Shown here piece after piece: positions 243 through 8,834 of a stretch of DNA of 9,254 nt. The stretch's first letter is position 1, and each line of letters starts with the position of its first letter. Both the position numbers and the translations under genes were made by a program. The notes beneath the pieces were generated by a model. The model searched no databases. It was not told the DNA's origin and worked only from the letters and a program-made list of their open reading frames with translations. The stretch covers positions 1 through 9,254 of the forward strand of contig JAUVYQ010000105.1 in NCBI GenBank assembly GCA_030603035.1, given 5' to 3'. Source of the DNA: Phycisphaerae bacterium. Its GTDB lineage: Bacteria > Planctomycetota > Phycisphaerae > Sedimentisphaerales > SG8-4.

Positions 243-440
243 GAAGAAAATTGGCCACAGATTTCGCAGATTTCAGGATTTTTATTAACCGCAGAGAACG
301 CTCCCATTTACCTCCAGCGTAACGTCTCAATCTGTCAATTTTGTACGTATTCTAACTCTTTCTGGCAAAATGTCCACAGTATCTTTGGCAAGTAGCCAAG
401 GGAGCAGCCCGGGCAAAGGGGCTGGGCAACAGGGATAGGT

Positions 441-495
441 TATCAGGTAATCAGGTAATCAGGTTGCAGGATATCAGATTATCAGGGTATCAGGA
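441..495. repeat. Degenerate octamer tandem repeat (TATCAGGT)
   Basis: Seven consecutive units are visible: TATCAGGT, AATCAGGT, AATCAGGT, TGCAGGA (one base short), TATCAGAT, TATCAGGG, TATCAGGA. The period is 8, so it would shift frame if translated, and it sits outside any gene. The flank GATAGGT just upstream is shared with the second array at 591-614. Confidence 0.8.
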
Positions 496-530
496 TAGCT
501 CGATGTGAGGCGAGGGGCAAGGAAAGAAAA

Positions 531-569
531 GAATATCGAATATCGAACAAGGAATGATGAATGTCGAAG
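531..569. repeat. Degenerate GAATATC heptamer repeat
   Basis: Two exact GAATATC units (531-544) are followed by degraded relatives (GAACAAG, GAATGAT, GAATGTC) ending in GAAG. The period of 7 and the sequence differ from the neighbouring octamer arrays, so this is a separate repeat family lying between them. Confidence 0.6.
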
Positions 570-590
570 TGGGCGGCGGGGGCGATAGGT

Positions 591-614
591 TATCAGGTAA
601 TCAGGAAATCAGGA
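591..614. repeat. Second TATCAGGT octamer array
   Basis: Three units are present: TATCAGGT, AATCAGGA, AATCAGGA. With its upstream flank GATAGGT this repeats the opening of the array at 441-495, so the two probably derive from one element or from a duplication. Confidence 0.7.
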
Positions 615-1538: not shown

Positions 1539-3023
1539 CTAAATTTGCTCAACGAGCAAATCGTAGTCTTTCGTGGCAACGACTTTTGTATTGATGAACT
1601 GTGCGGGTTTTGCCGAACAATTTTTTATGATGCAGATGCTGTCGATATCGGGCGCCTGGCCGTAAAAGCGCCCCTTGCCCGTGCCTGCACGGTCAACCCC
1701 GTTAGAAATCGGCGTGTTAGCCCGTAAGTTTTCGTTAGTCTTACGGGGCTTACTTCTAACGGGGCCAACGGAATCAACCAGGCAGGTAAGTTTACTGCCG
1801 ACCCTGTTTCTATTTTTGGCAAAGACGATTTTCTGCTGGGTGAGCATCAGCTCTTCGAGTCGCTGCTGTTTTATCCGGTCAGGAACTTGAGCGGGCATAT
1901 CGGCTGCGTCGGTGCCGGATTCGGGATAGAACCTGAAACAGCCGAGTGCGTCAAACTTCGCCCATTTGATAAAGTCCAGAAGCTCGTCGAATTGTCGGTC
2001 GGTTTCGCCGGGGAAGCCGACTATCAGAGTTGTTCGCAGTGAACAATCGCCCAGCCGCGAGCGCAAGTTTTCAATCAGTCGGCAGATGCGCTCTTTGGTA
2101 TCGGGCCGGCGCATGGCCTTTAAGATTTTATTGTTTATGTGCTGGATGGGGACATCCAAATAATTGACGATTTTTTCACTTCTTGTGATGGTTTCGATTA
2201 GCTCATCATCAATTCCCGCCGGGTAAAGATACATCAATCGAATCCACGCCAGGCCGGCAATTTTTTCAAGCTCCCTTACAAGTGCAGCCAGGCCGGTTTT
2301 TACCCCGTTAGAAATCACCGCCAACAGGGAGCAGACGTCGGGCGTCTTACTTCTAACGAGGTTTATTTTCAAATCGCGCCCGTAGTATGTGGTGTCCTGT
2401 CCGATTATGTTTAACTCGACTGCGCCTGCCGAGACCAGTTCGACGGCTTCGGCAAGAACAAGCTCTTTGGGCTTGCTTCTAAACGGGCCTCTGATTGCCG
2501 GTATTGTGCAAAAAGAGCATCGGTGATTGCAGCCCTCGCTGATTCGCAGGTACGCCCAATGACGTGGGGCAATAAGTAATCTGGTTCTATCATCACTGAT
2601 TGCGTGCGGCGATTGCTCCAGGAAAGCAGCGGGCTGCTCGCAAGAAAGAGTTTTTTCGATTATCCGGGCAATATTGTCCCGCTGGCCAAGGCCGACAATG
2701 GCGTCAATACCGTCGGCCTGGTTGAAAAGCTCCCGGCCTAATCTCTCCGGCAGACAACCTGCGACGATTACCTTTTTTACCCGCCGCGGCGGGTTGAGTT
2801 TGCAGGCCACCGCGCGTTTTACTGCCTCGAGCGCTTCAGCTTTGGCCGGAGCGATAAACCCACACGTATTGATGACAACAATATCGGCATTCTCAGGCTC
2901 GGCGGTTATCAGCAAACCCGCCCGGGCAATTTCGGCCAATATCCTTTCGCTATCAACTATATTTTTAGGACAGCCCAGCGCTATGAAGCCGACGGTTACT
3001 TTTTTTTGCCTTTTTTTGGCCAT
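1539..3023 (-). CDS. rimO: Ribosomal protein S12 methylthiotransferase RimO with two in-frame insertions
   Basis: RimO is a radical-SAM enzyme with two iron-sulfur clusters that adds a methylthio group to a conserved aspartate of ribosomal protein S12. The N-terminal UPF0004 domain has its three cluster cysteines at C18 (L-G-C-P-K-N, the RimO form rather than the MiaB form), C54 (N-T-C-G-F) and C90 (A-G-C-L-P-E-R). The radical-SAM motif CxxxCxxC is C165, C169, C172. The C-terminal TRAM domain starts around residue 408 and ends in A-P-D-I-D-S and Y-D-L-L. The protein is 494 residues, against about 440 for E. coli RimO. The excess is two stretches, residues about 221-241 and 420-443, encoded by palindromic elements. 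Without them the length would be about 449 and both junctions read like ordinary RimO. All catalytic residues are intact, so it is probably functional. ATG 3023 has no clear Shine-Dalgarno sequence. pgsA follows after 37 nt. Confidence 0.93.
   Translation of the reverse strand: MAKKRQKKVTVGFIALGCPKNIVDSERILAEIARAGLLITAEPENADIVVINTCGFIAPAKAEALEAVKRAVACKLNPPRRVKKVIVAGCLPERLGRELFNQADGIDAIVGLGQRDNIARIIEKTLSCEQPAAFLEQSPHAISDDRTRLLIAPRHWAYLRISEGCNHRCSFCTIPAIRGPFRSKPKELVLAEAVELVSAGAVELNIIGQDTTYYGRDLKINLVRSKTPDVCSLLAVISNGVKTGLAALVRELEKIAGLAWIRLMYLYPAGIDDELIETITRSEKIVNYLDVPIQHINNKILKAMRRPDTKERICRLIENLRSRLGDCSLRTTLIVGFPGETDRQFDELLDFIKWAKFDALGCFRFYPESGTDAADMPAQVPDRIKQQRLEELMLTQQKIVFAKNRNRVGSKLTCLVDSVGPVRSKPRKTNENLRANTPISNGVDRAGTGKGRFYGQAPDIDSICIIKNCSAKPAQFINTKVVATKDYDLLVEQI
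1697..1764 (-). repeat. Palindromic element, copy A (in-frame inside rimO TRAM domain)
   Basis: This 68-bp element has perfect 11-bp terminal inverted repeats CCCCGTTAGAA/TTCTAACGGGG. An inner 8-bp stem, CCCGTAAG (1721-1728) with CTTACGGG (1740-1747), makes a second palindrome. Flanks are TCAA and CCAA (3 of 4 identical), compatible with a 4-bp target duplication. Read in rimO sense it encodes V-R-S-K ... I-S-N-G-V with no stop. 68+4 = 72 nt = 24 codons, which preserves the frame. Removing it gives V-D-S-V-D-R-A-G-T-G-K-G-R, close to the E. coli RimO V-D-E-V-D-E-E-G-A-I-G-R. Confidence 0.88.
2303..2361 (-). repeat. Palindromic element, copy B (in-frame inside rimO radical-SAM domain)
   Basis: This 59-bp element has the same inverted ends (one arm CCTCGTTAGAA, with one mismatch that is a G-U pair in RNA) and an inner stem AGACG/CGTCT. 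It is flanked by a perfect 4-bp direct repeat, TTTA at 2299-2302 and 2362-2365. In rimO sense it encodes V-R-S-K ... I-S-N-G-V in the same phase as copy A. 59+4 = 63 nt = 21 codons. Removing it joins G-R-D-L-K-I-K-T to G-L-A-A-L-V-R-E-L, the same spacing as canonical RimO proteins. Confidence 0.9.
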
Positions 3024-3145: not shown

Positions 3146-3246
3146 AATGCGAGATACCGTTTTTATTTACGTTACGTTAAAAGTGCTTAGGCACAATAGG
3201 AGTGGTTTGCCTGTTAGACGTAGGTTCATAAGGGCGGTTATTGATT

Positions 3247-5244
3247 ATGGACAGCAGCCAGAAAATTAGCCGCAGTCAAGCGCTGATTGGGGCTTTGGTT
3301 GTAATAACTTTGCCGTGTATTTGCGGCTGCGGGGAGTTATTAGGCACAAAACCTGCCGAATTTCAATCCGAAAAGATCCTCAGCGATTTGAGTGCAGTTA
3401 GAATCACACCCGAGCCCAATATCCCTCTGCCGCAAATCTACAAAGACCCACCTAAAATCGTCAAGCATATAGTCGGTGGCGCTGAAGAGTGGAAACTATT
3501 CTACTTCGGCCAGTACCTTACCTCAGACGAATTACAAGCTATCGTCCATGAGATGTTTGCCACGCTACTTTTCAACGCAAAAGGTAAATCAACTACCATC
3601 AAGGACTACAAGGTCATCAGCATCCGCCCTACCAACCAGTTGATAGTAAGATGCCCACTCAAGGAAGATATCGACGCGGTACTTGAAACTCTGGAGTGGT
3701 CGGATGTCCCGCCGGTTCAGGTTAAAATAGATTGCATTATATCCGAGGTTTATGCGGATAAGACACTGGACCGGTCAACCACTATAGAAATCTTAGACCT
3801 ATTCGGTGAGGATATTGCTTTGAAACCTGCCGGTATACCTTTCATCGAGCAGCTTCGCTTGTTAGTGGAGGAAGGGGAAGAAGTATTCCCTGCATTTCCC
3901 GGGGCCGTCCTTAGAGACGTAGCTCGTGCAAAAATGGGGCTTAAGGCCGGATACTTGAGCGATAAATTCACAGCTTTGGTGGATGTGTTGGAGTCTCACG
4001 GTTATCTCAAAATCCTGATGAACCCCACCCTTGAAACCGTCAATGGCCAGATGGCAAAAATCTCGGCGACTCAAAAAATACCGCTGCAAAGGATAACTAC
4101 AGAGCGTCCGGAATTGGATTATGTAACAACGCAATTCGAATATGTGGAGATAGTGGATTCGCTTGAAATCACTCCCCACGTCTACTTTGGAGACAGCTCC
4201 ATCGGCCTGAAAACAAAGATCGTTCTCAGCTCAAAATTAACTCCCGAAGGCGTCAAGCAAATAAGCATCGTCACCAAAAAAGAAATCGACAATAAAGAAA
4301 ACCGCATCAGACAAGGCGAAAGTCTGGTAATTGGAGGGATAAGAAAGATTGAGGAGCGTGATGTTGTCCGCGGCTTCCCAATCCTAAAAGACATACCCTT
4401 CCTCGGCATGCTGTTCTCAGGCAGAGATTTTGAAGAGCGAGCCGTGGAGACTATATTCATATTAACCCCGACCTTCTCCACCGGCGGCATCCCAAGAGAA
4501 GAAATGCTCGAAGAGCTCAAAAGAAAACACGAAAAGGCTTCCTCCAAATTCATGGACCCCCTCGGCATCAAAGCCCTCGAAAGAGAACACCAGCGCAAAG
4601 CCCGCGAGGCTGAGGAAGCACGTATCAAGGCCGAGGCAGAAAAAGCAGAGGCCCGACACGCCGTCAGAGAGGCCGACGAGCAAGTCAAAAAAGCAAAGGC
4701 CGAGACCGAACAGGCAACAACAAAAACCAAAAAAGCTACTGCTGCCGAACAGCAGGCAAAAGTCGAAGCTGAAAAAGCAAAGACCGAAGCTAAAACAGCC
4801 GCAGAAAAAGCTGCTGTCGCCGAGAAGCAAGCACAGACCGAAATAGAAAAATTAAAAGCCGAGGCTGAAAAGGCGAAGGCCGAGGTCGAAAAAGCAAAAG
4901 CTGATGCACAAAGGGCAGCGGCCGAAGCCGAAAAAGCAAAAGCCGATGCAGCAAAAACCAAAGCTGAAGCCGAAAGGTTAGCGGCAGAGGCCAAAAAGGC
5001 CAAAGCTGAAGCCGAAGAAAAGGCCAAAGCTGAAGCCGAAGAAAAAGCCAAACGAAAAGCCAGGGCAAAAGCCAAACGAAAAGCCAGGGCGAAAGCCAAA
5101 CGGGAAGCCGAGGAAAAGGCCAAACAAGAAGCCGAGGCAAAGGCCGAAGCTGAAGCCGAAGAAAAGCCCGAGGATGAAGCTGAAAATACCGAACCTGAAG
5201 ATGTGAAGCCCTATAGTCGTGTCAAACCTGAGCGGCGTTATTAA
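3247..5244 (+). CDS. Secretin-domain lipoprotein with long Ala/Lys/Glu-rich helical tail
   Basis: This is a probable outer-membrane secretin-like channel protein of the type II/III secretion and type IV pilus superfamily. Numbering here is from an alternative TTG at 3241; the chosen ATG 3247 is better spaced from AGGGCGG (3231-3237). A hydrophobic segment (residues 14-29) ends in I-C-G-C30, a lipobox-like site, so a lipid-anchored mature protein is likely. Residues about 95-170 resemble a secretin N domain, with T-N-Q-L-I-V near 131. Residues about 235-412 form the secretin domain, with G-E-S-L-V-I-G-G-I (359-367), F-P-I-L-K-D-I-P-F-L-G-M-L-F (379-392) and I-L-T-P (407-410). From about 445 to 650 the chain is almost only A, K, E and R, as in a TolA-type long helix. 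At one N domain the periplasmic part is shorter than in GspD. No other secretion genes are in the window, so the transported substrate is unknown. Confidence 0.82.
   Translation: MDSSQKISRSQALIGALVVITLPCICGCGELLGTKPAEFQSEKILSDLSAVRITPEPNIPLPQIYKDPPKIVKHIVGGAEEWKLFYFGQYLTSDELQAIVHEMFATLLFNAKGKSTTIKDYKVISIRPTNQLIVRCPLKEDIDAVLETLEWSDVPPVQVKIDCIISEVYADKTLDRSTTIEILDLFGEDIALKPAGIPFIEQLRLLVEEGEEVFPAFPGAVLRDVARAKMGLKAGYLSDKFTALVDVLESHGYLKILMNPTLETVNGQMAKISATQKIPLQRITTERPELDYVTTQFEYVEIVDSLEITPHVYFGDSSIGLKTKIVLSSKLTPEGVKQISIVTKKEIDNKENRIRQGESLVIGGIRKIEERDVVRGFPILKDIPFLGMLFSGRDFEERAVETIFILTPTFSTGGIPREEMLEELKRKHEKASSKFMDPLGIKALEREHQRKAREAEEARIKAEAEKAEARHAVREADEQVKKAKAETEQATTKTKKATAAEQQAKVEAEKAKTEAKTAAEKAAVAEKQAQTEIEKLKAEAEKAKAEVEKAKADAQRAAAEAEKAKADAAKTKAEAERLAAEAKKAKAEAEEKAKAEAEEKAKRKARAKAKRKARAKAKREAEEKAKQEAEAKAEAEAEEKPEDEAENTEPEDVKPYSRVKPERRY
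4999..5097 (+). repeat. Two 24-nt in-frame tandem duplications in the secretin tail
   Basis: One 24-nt unit encoding A-K-A-E-A-E-E-K is repeated at 4999-5022 and 5023-5046 with one base difference. Immediately after, a unit encoding K-R-K-A-R-A-K-A is repeated at 5050-5073 and 5074-5097, again with one difference. Near-identity at DNA level points to recent slippage or unequal exchange that lengthened the tail by whole heptad-scale blocks. The second pair replaces the mixed-charge pattern with a strongly basic patch. Confidence 0.85.
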
Positions 5245-5701: not shown

Positions 5702-5872
5702 TTCGCATCTCGCAGCTCGGAGTCAAACCACAAGTCACGAGCGACGAGATACGAGCAGCTTTCTCAGCTGGCTCTCACCGCAATCATTCTTTCAAAGGCC
5801 AGCCTGGCGGACACGGCCCAAGCCACACAATACGCAATACCAAATACAAACATCGAAGGACAGCAGTGTGAA

Positions 5873-5931
5873 CCCCGTTAGAAGTGAAACGCCCAGCGTC
5901 TGTCCTGCTAACAACAGGACTTCTAACGGGG
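5873..5931 (+). repeat. Palindromic element, copy C (intergenic)
   Basis: This 59-bp copy is the same length as copy B. Its outer arms CCCCGTTAGAA and TTCTAACGGGG match perfectly. Inside, ACGC-CCA-GCGT and GTCCTG-CTAACAA-CAGGAC can form two hairpins, so the single strand would fold into a three-way junction. Flanks TGAA and CGAA match at 3 of 4 positions. The left half shares GTTAGAAGT and ACGCCC..CGTCTG with copy B. It remains stop-free in the phase used in rimO, although it is not in a gene. Confidence 0.85.
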
Positions 5932-6132: not shown

Positions 6133-7002
6133 GTGGCTAAAGAGCTGACTCGTGAACTCATTAACGCAGGGGTCCATTTTGGACACAGTGTGAGCCGATG
6201 GAATCCCAAAATGGCCCCGTTTATCTTCGCAAAACGCGGTAATATTCATATTATTGACGTGAAAAAAACCTTAAAGGGGCTGCTCATAGCCAGAAAGCTC
6301 CTTGCTGAGGTGGTCTCTTCCGGCAAAGATGTCGTTTTTGTAGGCACGAAGCGTCAGGCCCAAAAAGCCGTGCAGGCGGTTGCGGAAAAGTGCGGGATGT
6401 ATTATGTCTCCGAGCGGTGGCTCGGCGGGATGCTTACCAACTTTAGAACCATACGCTCTCGACTGCAAAGACTGGAGCAGTTGGAAGCTATGCAGGAAAA
6501 TGGAACACTTGAGAGTGAAAGCAAGAAGCAGGCGTCGAGACTCAAACGCGAAATGCGAAAGATAAAGAGTAATCTCGATGGCATTCGCAAGATGTCTCGT
6601 CTGCCGGGTGCTGTTGTGGTGGTTGACGCCAGAAAGGAATATCTTGCCTTGCGTGAGGCCAGAAAGCTGGGGATTGCAACAGTGGGACTTCTCGATACGG
6701 ATTCGGACCCTGATACGGTGGATGTGGCGATACCGGCCAATGATGATTCCATCAGAGCAATCGATTTGATACTCAACGAGCTGGCCGATGCGGTGGCGAT
6801 TGGTAAAACGATGGTTTCAGCTCGTCCGGAACCGAAGCAACGCCCGAGGCGGGTCCGCTCAAGAAAGCCAACGTTGGCCCGTGCCGATGAAGCCAAACCC
6901 GAGACTGTTACCGTTGTCGAGCAGACCTCAGCAAAGACCGCAGAATCGCCTTCGCAACAAGACCAAACACAGCAGCAGGAACCAAAACAATCAACCTCGT
7001 AG
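6133..7002 (+). CDS. rpsB: 30S ribosomal protein S2
   Basis: S2 binds the 30S subunit late in assembly and helps recruit S1. The start is GTG 6133, with GGAGG (6122-6126) 6 nt upstream and the standard opening M-A-K-E-L-T-R-E-L-I-N-A-G-V-H-F-G-H. Family landmarks are W-N-P-K-M (23-27), I-H-I-I-D (38-42), F-V-G-T-K-R-Q-A (69-76), R-W-L-G-G-M-L-T-N-F (95-104), D-A-R-K-E (165-169), L-L-D-T-D-S-D-P (186-193) and I-P-A-N-D-D-S (200-206). At 289 residues it is about 48 longer than the E. coli protein. The excess is a C-terminal tail from about residue 231, basic at first (R-P-R-R-V-R-S-R-K) and then rich in Gln, Glu and Ser, probably disordered. It heads the conserved cluster with tsf, pyrH and frr. 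Confidence 0.97.
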   Translation: MAKELTRELINAGVHFGHSVSRWNPKMAPFIFAKRGNIHIIDVKKTLKGLLIARKLLAEVVSSGKDVVFVGTKRQAQKAVQAVAEKCGMYYVSERWLGGMLTNFRTIRSRLQRLEQLEAMQENGTLESESKKQASRLKREMRKIKSNLDGIRKMSRLPGAVVVVDARKEYLALREARKLGIATVGLLDTDSDPDTVDVAIPANDDSIRAIDLILNELADAVAIGKTMVSARPEPKQRPRRVRSRKPTLARADEAKPETVTVVEQTSAKTAESPSQQDQTQQQEPKQSTS

Positions 7003-7080
7003 TGCGTCGTGCGTATTGAGTATTGCGTAAAAACTAACTCCGCACGCAATACGCAATACGATATGCGCAATACGAAATTA
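7003..7080 (+). repeat. AATACGA-type repeat filling the rpsB-tsf spacer, forming a long hairpin
   Basis: The repeat starts on the base after the rpsB stop. The left half, TGCGTATTGAGTATTGCGT (7010-7028), is nearly the inverse of ACGCAATACGCAATACGAT (7044-7062). Together they could form a 19-bp stem with two mismatches and a 15-nt loop. The right half then continues as GCGCAATACGAAATTAGG and merges into the tsf ribosome-binding site (AGGAG, 7080-7084). No T tract follows, so read-through is expected. Partial attenuation or RNA processing between rpsB and tsf is possible. Confidence 0.75.
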
Positions 7081-7092
7081 GGAGTTTTTAAG

Positions 7093-8037: not shown

Positions 8038-8766
8038 ATGGTTAAGAGCAAATATAATCGCGTGTTATTGAAACTTTCCGGCGAAAGTTTTTGCAAACCC
8101 GGCGGATTCGGTATTGACGCCGCTGAGCTTAAATCAATTGCCGAAAGGATAACAGAAATCTGCAAGCTCGGGCCGCAGGTCGCAATCGTGGTTGGTGGAG
8201 GCAATTTCCTTAGAGGAGAGAATTTTTCGCAAATCTGCAAAATACCCAGAAACACGGCCGATTATATGGGGATGTTAGCCACTATTATCAACGCCTGTGC
8301 CCTGCAGGAGACGCTTGAGAAACTGGGTCAGCCGACGAGGGTCCTCAGCGCAATCGAGGTCGCGGCGATATGTGAGCCGTTTATTCGCAGAAGAACCCTT
8401 CGGCACCTCGAACAGGGAAGGGTTGCGATATTGGCCGGCGGAACCGGAAATCCTTTCTTCACCACCGATACCTGTGCGGCCTTAAGGGCTTCGGAGCTCG
8501 ATGCAGACCTGCTCATAAAGGCAACGAAGGTCGAGGGCGTCTACAGCGATGACCCCGAAAAAAATCCGGATGCAAAGCTGTTCGAGAAATTATCTTACGA
8601 TGATGTGTTAAAGAAAAACCTTAGAGTAATGGACCATTCGGCAATAAGTCTTTGCCGGGACAACAATATTCCTATCATTGTTTTGAATATTTTCAAAAAG
8701 GGAAACATAGCAAAGGCCCTTTGCGGCCAGCAGGTCGGCACCAAAATAGTGATGCGTCGTGCGTGA
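8038..8766 (+). CDS. pyrH: Uridylate kinase (UMP kinase)
   Basis: This cytoplasmic amino-acid-kinase-family enzyme phosphorylates UMP to UDP with ATP, in pyrimidine nucleotide synthesis. Bacterial PyrH is a hexamer, usually activated by GTP and inhibited by UTP. The 242-residue product has K-L-S-G-E (12-16), V-V-G-G-G-N-F-L-R-G (51-60), D-Y-M-G-M-L-A-T (75-82), G-G-T-G-N-P-F-F-T-T-D-T (134-145) and K-A-T-K-V-E-G-V-Y (161-169), all typical. ATG 8038 puts the first strand in the usual place. Its ribosome-binding site is weak (CGAAGAAA), and starts at 7978 or 8008 would add repeat-encoded residues. The last four codons and stop (M-R-R-A) lie in the next intergenic repeat. tsf ends 72 nt upstream and frr begins 74 nt downstream. 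Confidence 0.95.
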   Translation: MVKSKYNRVLLKLSGESFCKPGGFGIDAAELKSIAERITEICKLGPQVAIVVGGGNFLRGENFSQICKIPRNTADYMGMLATIINACALQETLEKLGQPTRVLSAIEVAAICEPFIRRRTLRHLEQGRVAILAGGTGNPFFTTDTCAALRASELDADLLIKATKVEGVYSDDPEKNPDAKLFEKLSYDDVLKKNLRVMDHSAISLCRDNNIPIIVLNIFKKGNIAKALCGQQVGTKIVMRRA

Positions 8767-8834
8767 TGCGTATCGCGTGAGGGAAAAGACCAAATACGAT
8801 ATACGCAATACGATATACTCAATACGAAATGAGG
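8751..8834 (+). repeat. AATACGA-type repeat overlapping the pyrH end and filling the pyrH-frr spacer
   Basis: The left half, GATGCGTCGTGCGTGATGCG (8751-8770), covers the last pyrH codons and stop. Its TGCGTCGTGCGT (8753-8764) is identical to 7003-7014 after rpsB. The right half has AATACGATATACGCAATACG and CAATACGAAATGAGG, closely matching CAATACGAAATTAGG before tsf, and ends at the frr ribosome-binding site. Left and right halves are partly complementary (TGCGTATCG with CGATATACGCA). Confidence 0.75.

Follow-up and report, generated by a model that had tools for sequence, protein, structure and literature searches.

The window, by which we mean the whole stretch of 9,254 nt analysed, was Phycisphaerae-like in gene content and carried, in order, a pgsA-like gene (minus strand; match below the model cut-off), rimO (minus strand), a secretin-like gene, an unknown gene, and then rpsB, tsf, pyrH, and frr. 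The rimO product was identified as RimO by its profile match (TIGR01125, 434 bits, above the cut-off). A palindromic element with 11-bp inverted ends (CCCCGTTAGAA/TTCTAACGGGG) was present in three copies, of which A and B lay inside rimO and C was intergenic (Table 1).

Table 1. Position of rimO, the element copies, and other repeats in the window.
Feature	Position	Strand	Description
Direct-repeat array	426..613		Intergenic array of short direct repeats, TTATCAGGTAATCAGG type
rimO	1539..3023	-	Ribosomal protein S12 methylthiotransferase of 494 aa; carries two peptide inserts
Copy A	1697..1764	-	68 bp, with inverted ends of 11 bp; accounts for most of residues 419-442 (VGPVRSKPRKTNENLRANTPISNG)
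Inner palindrome in copy A	1721..1748	-	28 bp, ends CCCCGTAAG/CTTACGGG; resembles sister CCCCGTAAGA element
Copy B	2303..2361	-	59 bp; one end bears CCTCGTTAGAA; encodes most of residues 221-241 (NLVRSKTPDVCSLLAVISNGV)
Copy B target-site duplication TTTA	2299..2302 and 2362..2365	.	Exact, both sides
Secretin-like protein	3241..5244		Long Ala/Lys/Glu repeat tail, DNA periodicity of 12 bp
CAATACG/CGTATTG repeats	5825..5863, 6984..7088, 8742..8834		Between genes around rpsB, tsf, pyrH, frr; another repeat family
Copy C	5873..5931	.	59 bp, between genes, upstream of rpsB

As the earlier note had described, two copies of one element, 24 and 21 codons long, were found in the rimO frame, both encoding V-R-S-K...I-S-N-G-V on the coding strand and free of stops; the inserts read (V)GPVRSKPRKTNENLRANTPISNG(V) for copy A and NLVRSKTPDVCSLLAVISNGV for copy B. 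Together with the 4-bp duplication, copy A amounted to 72 bp (24 codons) and copy B to 63 bp (21 codons). The flanks of copy A (TCAA at 1693-1696 and CCAA at 1765-1768) matched at 3 of 4 positions, as did those of copy C (TGAA and CGAA), and the inner palindrome of copy A was flanked by TAAG and CTAA, with no exact duplication. The two insertions left the rimO frame unbroken, and the enzyme would gain two extra peptide loops. A gapped 16-base core pattern (gap 10–40) matched twice in the window, at the copies starting at 2303 and 5873, vs. no match in 200 shuffles; the copy at 1697 was missed because its spacer is longer than the allowed gap.

In an AlphaFold model of RimO of moderate quality (mean pLDDT 65.7, pTM 0.52), both inserts had a pLDDT under 50 and were predicted to lack regular structure, the copy-B insert between strand 203–208 and helix 244–252 and the copy-A insert between strands 411–416 and 449–453. 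The solved RimO structure 4jc0, compared with the family profile, had no insert at either place. The statement of the earlier note that six cysteines remain held: C18, C54, C90, C165, C169, and C172, which we take to be the six cluster cysteines, were all invariant in 47 aligned homologs. Since the cysteines are conserved and the frame is intact, RimO probably remains active with its inserts, as may the other insert-bearing proteins described below. The same note had called RimO an essential-fold enzyme; this was overstated, as RimO is usually dispensable.

An exact 4-bp direct repeat flanked 111 of 181 distinct elements, against a shuffled mean of 13.7 (maximum 27). Direct repeats of 3 and of 5 bp flanked four elements each, and 70 of the 181 had no exact duplication. 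A first, stricter set gave 84 exact 4-bp duplications in 130 elements; before these counts, we had removed elements lying less than 30 bp (130 set) or 45 bp (181 set) from the end of a locus, along with duplicates whose flanks were identical. The target consensus was YNNR, in most cases TNNA, with a slight preference for G just before it and for C just after. Element length was mostly 44–72 bp in the sets counted, a range favoured by the patterns used, and copies of 74–250 bp also occurred. Insertions were also nested, as in locus L206, which reads TTTA[CCCCGTTAGAA...TGGA[CCCCGTAAGA...TCTTACGGGG]TGGA...TTCTAACGGGG]TTTA with exact duplications, and in L119, where the inner copy had an exact TGAG duplication; there are therefore sister families, whose ends are CCCCGTAAGA and CCCCGCACCTTC. 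In L042, sister palindromes with CCCCGCACCTTC ends lay near genes of an Omnitrophota MAG (4874–4991 and 6696–6834); at the second, the duplication (TTCA) was exact and a further copy lay inside. In being short and multicopy, in lacking a transposase gene, and in having exact 11-bp terminal inverted repeats, target duplications of a fixed 4 bp, and both occupied and empty sites, the element resembled MITEs. These are as a rule linked to a single group and to an IS parent, whereas the identical ends of the present element were common to many phyla and no parent was found in the loci examined.

The transposase loci examined (three Pfam families) and 18 orphan ends revealed no gene-bearing partner. 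Around PF13701/PF01609 genes (52 loci of 68 matches, 24 carrier genomes), no end pair bracketed the gene within ~1.5 kb, with only the ends CCCCGTTAGA and CCCCGTAAGA searched, at one mismatch; likewise, no end pair bracketed the Y1 gene in 30 loci of 97 Y1_Tnp matches. Both groups of loci held stray one-mismatch half-sites, and L336 contained one small element-like end pair apart from its Y1 gene. Locus L150 was rejected as an autonomous transposon as its transposase has other inverted repeats, and the kb-spaced end pairs inspected were either juxtaposed small elements or spanned host genes. The half-site pattern gave 72, 101, 127, 89, and 65 matches against non-zero controls of 1, 5, 8, 4, and 1, respectively. 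Among the 18 orphan half-sites, taken from two Elusimicrobia genomes (G023 and G025), eight had a one-mismatch partner at 71–126 bp (seven of these with an exact duplication), three had only a three-mismatch partner at 126–149 bp, and seven had no partner; the stretch to one alternative partner, at 1,101 bp, took in part of a GTPase-like gene rather than a transposase. In the same two genomes (L316, L317), many copies were exactly 125 bp long, and two that were compared had common CCCCGTTAGAGA ends and different interiors. In Elusimicrobia carriers, 13 copies were near-identical. Sites of attC type, considered for their GTT/AAC cores, were rejected since the order is inverted relative to that of attC.

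These searches bear on the idea that the element is a palindrome of REP type whose movement depends on a RAYT (Y1, HUH) transposase acting on folded single strands. The REP/RAYT systems (GTAG and CGTC families) are likewise small palindromes found in many phyla, including Planctomycetes, and some lie within genes, as passages of PMC3733652 describe. They are defined by a tetranucleotide tag and a tyrosine transposase, whereas the present element has CCCCG ends and duplicates 4 bp of its target, and it bracketed none of the Y1 genes in the loci examined. Y1_Tnp matches were present in 22 of 24 carrier genomes, and in a subset of elements the fold was a precise three-way junction whose stems covary. 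The members of this subclass, 62 or 65 bp long, have one layout in common, in which an outer stem of 13 bp encloses a hairpin of 7 bp (loop of 3 nt) and another of 7–8 bp (template taken from two members, L276 and L241). At least 12 inner pairs formed in 12 of the 51 elements of 62 or 65 bp vs. 0.15 expected from shuffled interiors. The stem sequences differed among Patescibacteria, Omnitrophota, and Planctomycetota with the pairing kept, although perfect stems could also arise without selection, via hairpin-templated repair. A three-way fold common to all elements was rejected (median z −0.46 over 177 interiors, 24% below −2), most elements having no significant inner fold. Against a RAYT stand the exact 4-bp duplications, which are not expected of Y1 enzymes, the ends (CCCCGTTAG, not GTAG-tagged), and genomes G005 and G008, which carry the element without a Y1_Tnp match. 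We therefore consider movement by a RAYT unlikely.

The reading frame of host genes was assessed by defining a long open frame as one open for at least 40 codons on both sides of the element. Such frames held 57 of 133 elements of length 3n−4 vs. none of 48 elements of other lengths. In all 57, the element plus 4 bp was divisible by three and stop-free, with the open frame and not the 3n length having been the selection rule. The count of copies inside ORFs and their phase, which the earlier note had proposed, was thus 57 of 181, with 46 in the PVR...SNG phase and 11 in the PLE...LTG phase; the third phase is empty by construction because the ends carry TAG/TAA there. Outside long frames, 76 of 124 elements also had a length of 3n−4, and the length is therefore not simply the outcome of selection at each site. 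Scanning of 20 of the 57 host proteins gave a family match in 15: IF-2, SecA (its insert lying past the matched region, close to the C-terminus), a copper-type P-ATPase, a RarA-like AAA ATPase, AcsV, WaaA/KdtA, MnmG, an S1-domain protein, an O-antigen ligase-type protein, TGT, DNA polymerase I, carbamoyl-phosphate synthase (CarB), HydF, a PLP decarboxylase, and bL25. The 23-residue insert in TGT, from a genome in the phylum of G008, was present in 2 of 120 proteins, namely P0126 and the record of the query itself; it was missing from the remaining 118, and P0237 had an unlike insert of 30 residues close by.

Removal or skipping of the insert at the RNA or ribosome level, as for an intron or a bypassed hairpin, would leave no added peptide. 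Some copies do form strong hairpins, and the junction at empty sites is precise in DNA, but frame-keeping and freedom from stops in 57 of 57 copies in long frames would be needless for a skipped element, and no Rfam match was found in five sources, making this explanation very improbable.

The exact signature, a 22-base pattern with a gap of 20–50 bp in the scan of genome contigs, was found in at least 115 genome stretches. Among the matches listed, NCBI phylum labels were Omnitrophota (22), Planctomycetota (19), Nitrospirota (8), Elusimicrobiota (7), Thermodesulfobacteriota (4), Myxococcota (3, titled Deltaproteobacteria), candidate phyla of the Patescibacteria (~20), and single matches in Nitrospinota, Riflebacteria, WOR-3, and Bacillota, with 27 carrying no phylum label. 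The Bacillota-labelled (Clostridia) record sits in a phylum group of six genomes, four of which had the pattern. No Rickettsia appeared among the titles or labels of the matches listed from the at least 115 stretches, and the exact signature was present in only two stretches of viral contigs. Further copies in related genomes, which the earlier note had suggested searching for, were indeed found: 32 in the Phycisphaerae MAG G014, and between 1 and 56 in each of 30 genomes chosen as carriers, with none for the reversed control. The earlier note's placement of the element in a probable planctomycete was supported, with the correction that the element is not planctomycete-specific and extends across phyla. 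It is patchy within them, with the pattern in 13 of 145 genomes in the phylum of the Omnitrophica MAG G002, 3 of 149 in that of G014, and 7 of 192 in that of the Jorgensenbacteria MAG G008, centre genomes counted. In L032 (1581–3695), several CCCCG(T/A)TAGA-type copies lay at one place beside sequences that by eye resemble pilin leaders, an arrangement suggesting either a hot spot or genes that have been copied.

The carriers are almost all MAGs and the signature is rare within the sampled phyla (3/149, 7/192, 13/145), as expected if mis-binned metagenome contigs had produced the cross-phylum range. Copies nevertheless lay inside core genes and numbered 56, 27, and 17 in single genomes; several assemblies per group carried them (~12 Omnitrophota and ~13 Planctomycetota among the matches listed, with contigs of one MAG merged), and the few named TGT homologs were mostly Doudnabacteria/Patescibacteria, though two were named Methylomirabilota and Binatia. 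An artefact of binning is hence hardly credible, even less so than skipping.

Occupied and empty sites were compared in 121 RimO proteins (the query and the best 120 of 7,960 homologs), among which close homologs lacked one or both segments, as an alignment with relatives, recommended in the earlier note, was meant to reveal. The inserts were scattered, some nested and some at another site. After residue 220, ten rows had at least 10 extra residues, two of them a different repeat (VRQAHH...), and after residue 418, extra residues occurred in 19 rows, 18 of them of the PVR...SNG type. P0014 and P0021 had a further PLE...LTG insert nested within the 418 insert, and the same KTxEN subfamily was found in P0076 and P0104 at a third site near the RimO C-terminus, which points to an independent gain. 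The different peptide at site 220, VRQAHH(P/H)EQ in P0096 and P0107, also occurred at the N-terminus of RimO P0036, perhaps representing a second protein-inserting repeat family.

On a maximum-likelihood tree built without the insert columns, presence at site 220 required at least 5 state changes and presence at site 418 at least 11 (element type only); with all insert types, site 418 required 13 vs. an average of 19.6 for shuffled labels. Several nodes on the path of the window were poorly supported (48–57). Divergence was faster in the insert than in the body at site 220, and tracked the body at site 418 (body/insert 98/100, 90/93, 83/82, and 77/80% by identity band), and for this reason site 418 fits an old insert that would have been repeatedly lost. 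Least credible is that the two segments are ordinary lineage-specific loops, vertically inherited and palindromic by appearance only: the tracking at site 418 is what an old inherited segment would give, but P0003 (with insert) and P0009 (without) are 97.3% identical in RimO, the state changes at site 418 number at least 11, and the same DNA ends recur in unrelated genes and phyla, so that this reading is already refuted.

At the DNA level, copy A was absent from relative L209. In rimO of G014, the closest of 120 class members searched (RimO 88% identical to that of the window), copy A was lacking and copy B was present. The empty site in G014 reads GATTTC-GTTAAT vs. GATTCCGTTGG-element-TTGACC in the window. 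Conversely, G014 carried in the rimO-pgsA gap a related 110-bp element (CCCTGTTAGAA...TTCTAACAGGG) with TAAA on both sides, a place that was empty in the window. Copy C was not recognisable in relative L239, where the spacer does not align with the window; between G014 and the window, the spacer around copy C gave no alignment.

The element is real, mobile, palindromic, and protein-inserting, is present across phyla, and is RPE-like in action. The reading we prefer, with a probability of about 0.78, is that of a short, non-autonomous MITE-like element moved by a transposase and spreading between phyla. The type of transposase, the source of the element, and the transfer routes are what we infer. 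An element with CCCCGTTAGAA ends would be moved by a transposase supplied in trans, which would cut YNNR (mostly TNNA) with a 4-base stagger and so leave a 4-bp direct duplication. Element plus duplication is usually a multiple of three, and the two ends are mirror images that can be read through in two phases out of three (P-V-R...S-N-G-V or P-L-E...L-T-G); many genic insertions would thus do no more than add a loop of 12–25 residues. Loop-tolerant hosts would retain the insert, genic copies would be held to the 3n length and may seed more copies, and spread within genomes would be joined by transfer between phyla sharing sediment and groundwater. The third copy (5873–5931), the 4-bp duplications, the nesting, and the cross-phylum range are additions to the earlier note, whose analogy with RPE was supported by the in-frame copies, the empty sites of relatives, and the many further copies.

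Protein-inserting palindromes are best known from Rickettsia. In extracts of a 2024 review (PMC10969869, citing Ogata 2000, 2002), RPE are short palindromes of several families, ~150 bp long, lying in frame in protein genes and reported from Rickettsia, where in-frame insertion is unusually frequent; in-frame fusions through intragenic MITEs are given there as not unusual, and similar MITE-based protein evolution in other prokaryotes as conceivable. The present element shares with RPE that it is a short palindrome adding peptides in frame within genes. It differs, as far as a comparison by description goes, in its length (mostly 44–72 bp), its own 11-bp ends, the 4-bp duplication, the nesting, and its many phyla. 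PARCELs (palindromic amphipathic repeat coding elements), as described in PMC2996958, are also coding DNA with dyad symmetry, with a patchy distribution across clades that is ascribed to horizontal transfer, but form domains of tandem repeats of 25 residues, many of which lie in ORFs targeted to the membrane, whereas the present element makes single insertions in conserved enzymes. In the open-licence PMC literature we found no description of the element, and motif strings matched only papers unrelated by title.

A broader proposal, put forward tentatively and at somewhat less than even odds, is that one structured palindromic transposon lineage with a CCCCG-type end, and with an undescribed mobility enzyme that may recognise the three-way-junction fold, is active in eight or more bacterial phyla, where it would supply housekeeping enzymes with new peptide loops time and again and perhaps reversibly. 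In-frame insertion is seen here in several phyla, with a single set of DNA ends, with target duplications, and with empty sites to match. Two questions thereby become testable, namely the frequency at which mobile DNA gives rise to new protein segments and the means by which an element of 60 bp passes from one phylum to another. Annotation is also affected, because inserts of this kind turn up repeatedly in the proteins of uncultured bacteria as loops without an explanation, and peptides resembling PVRNK...SNGV are presumably to be met in candidate-phylum bacterial proteins.
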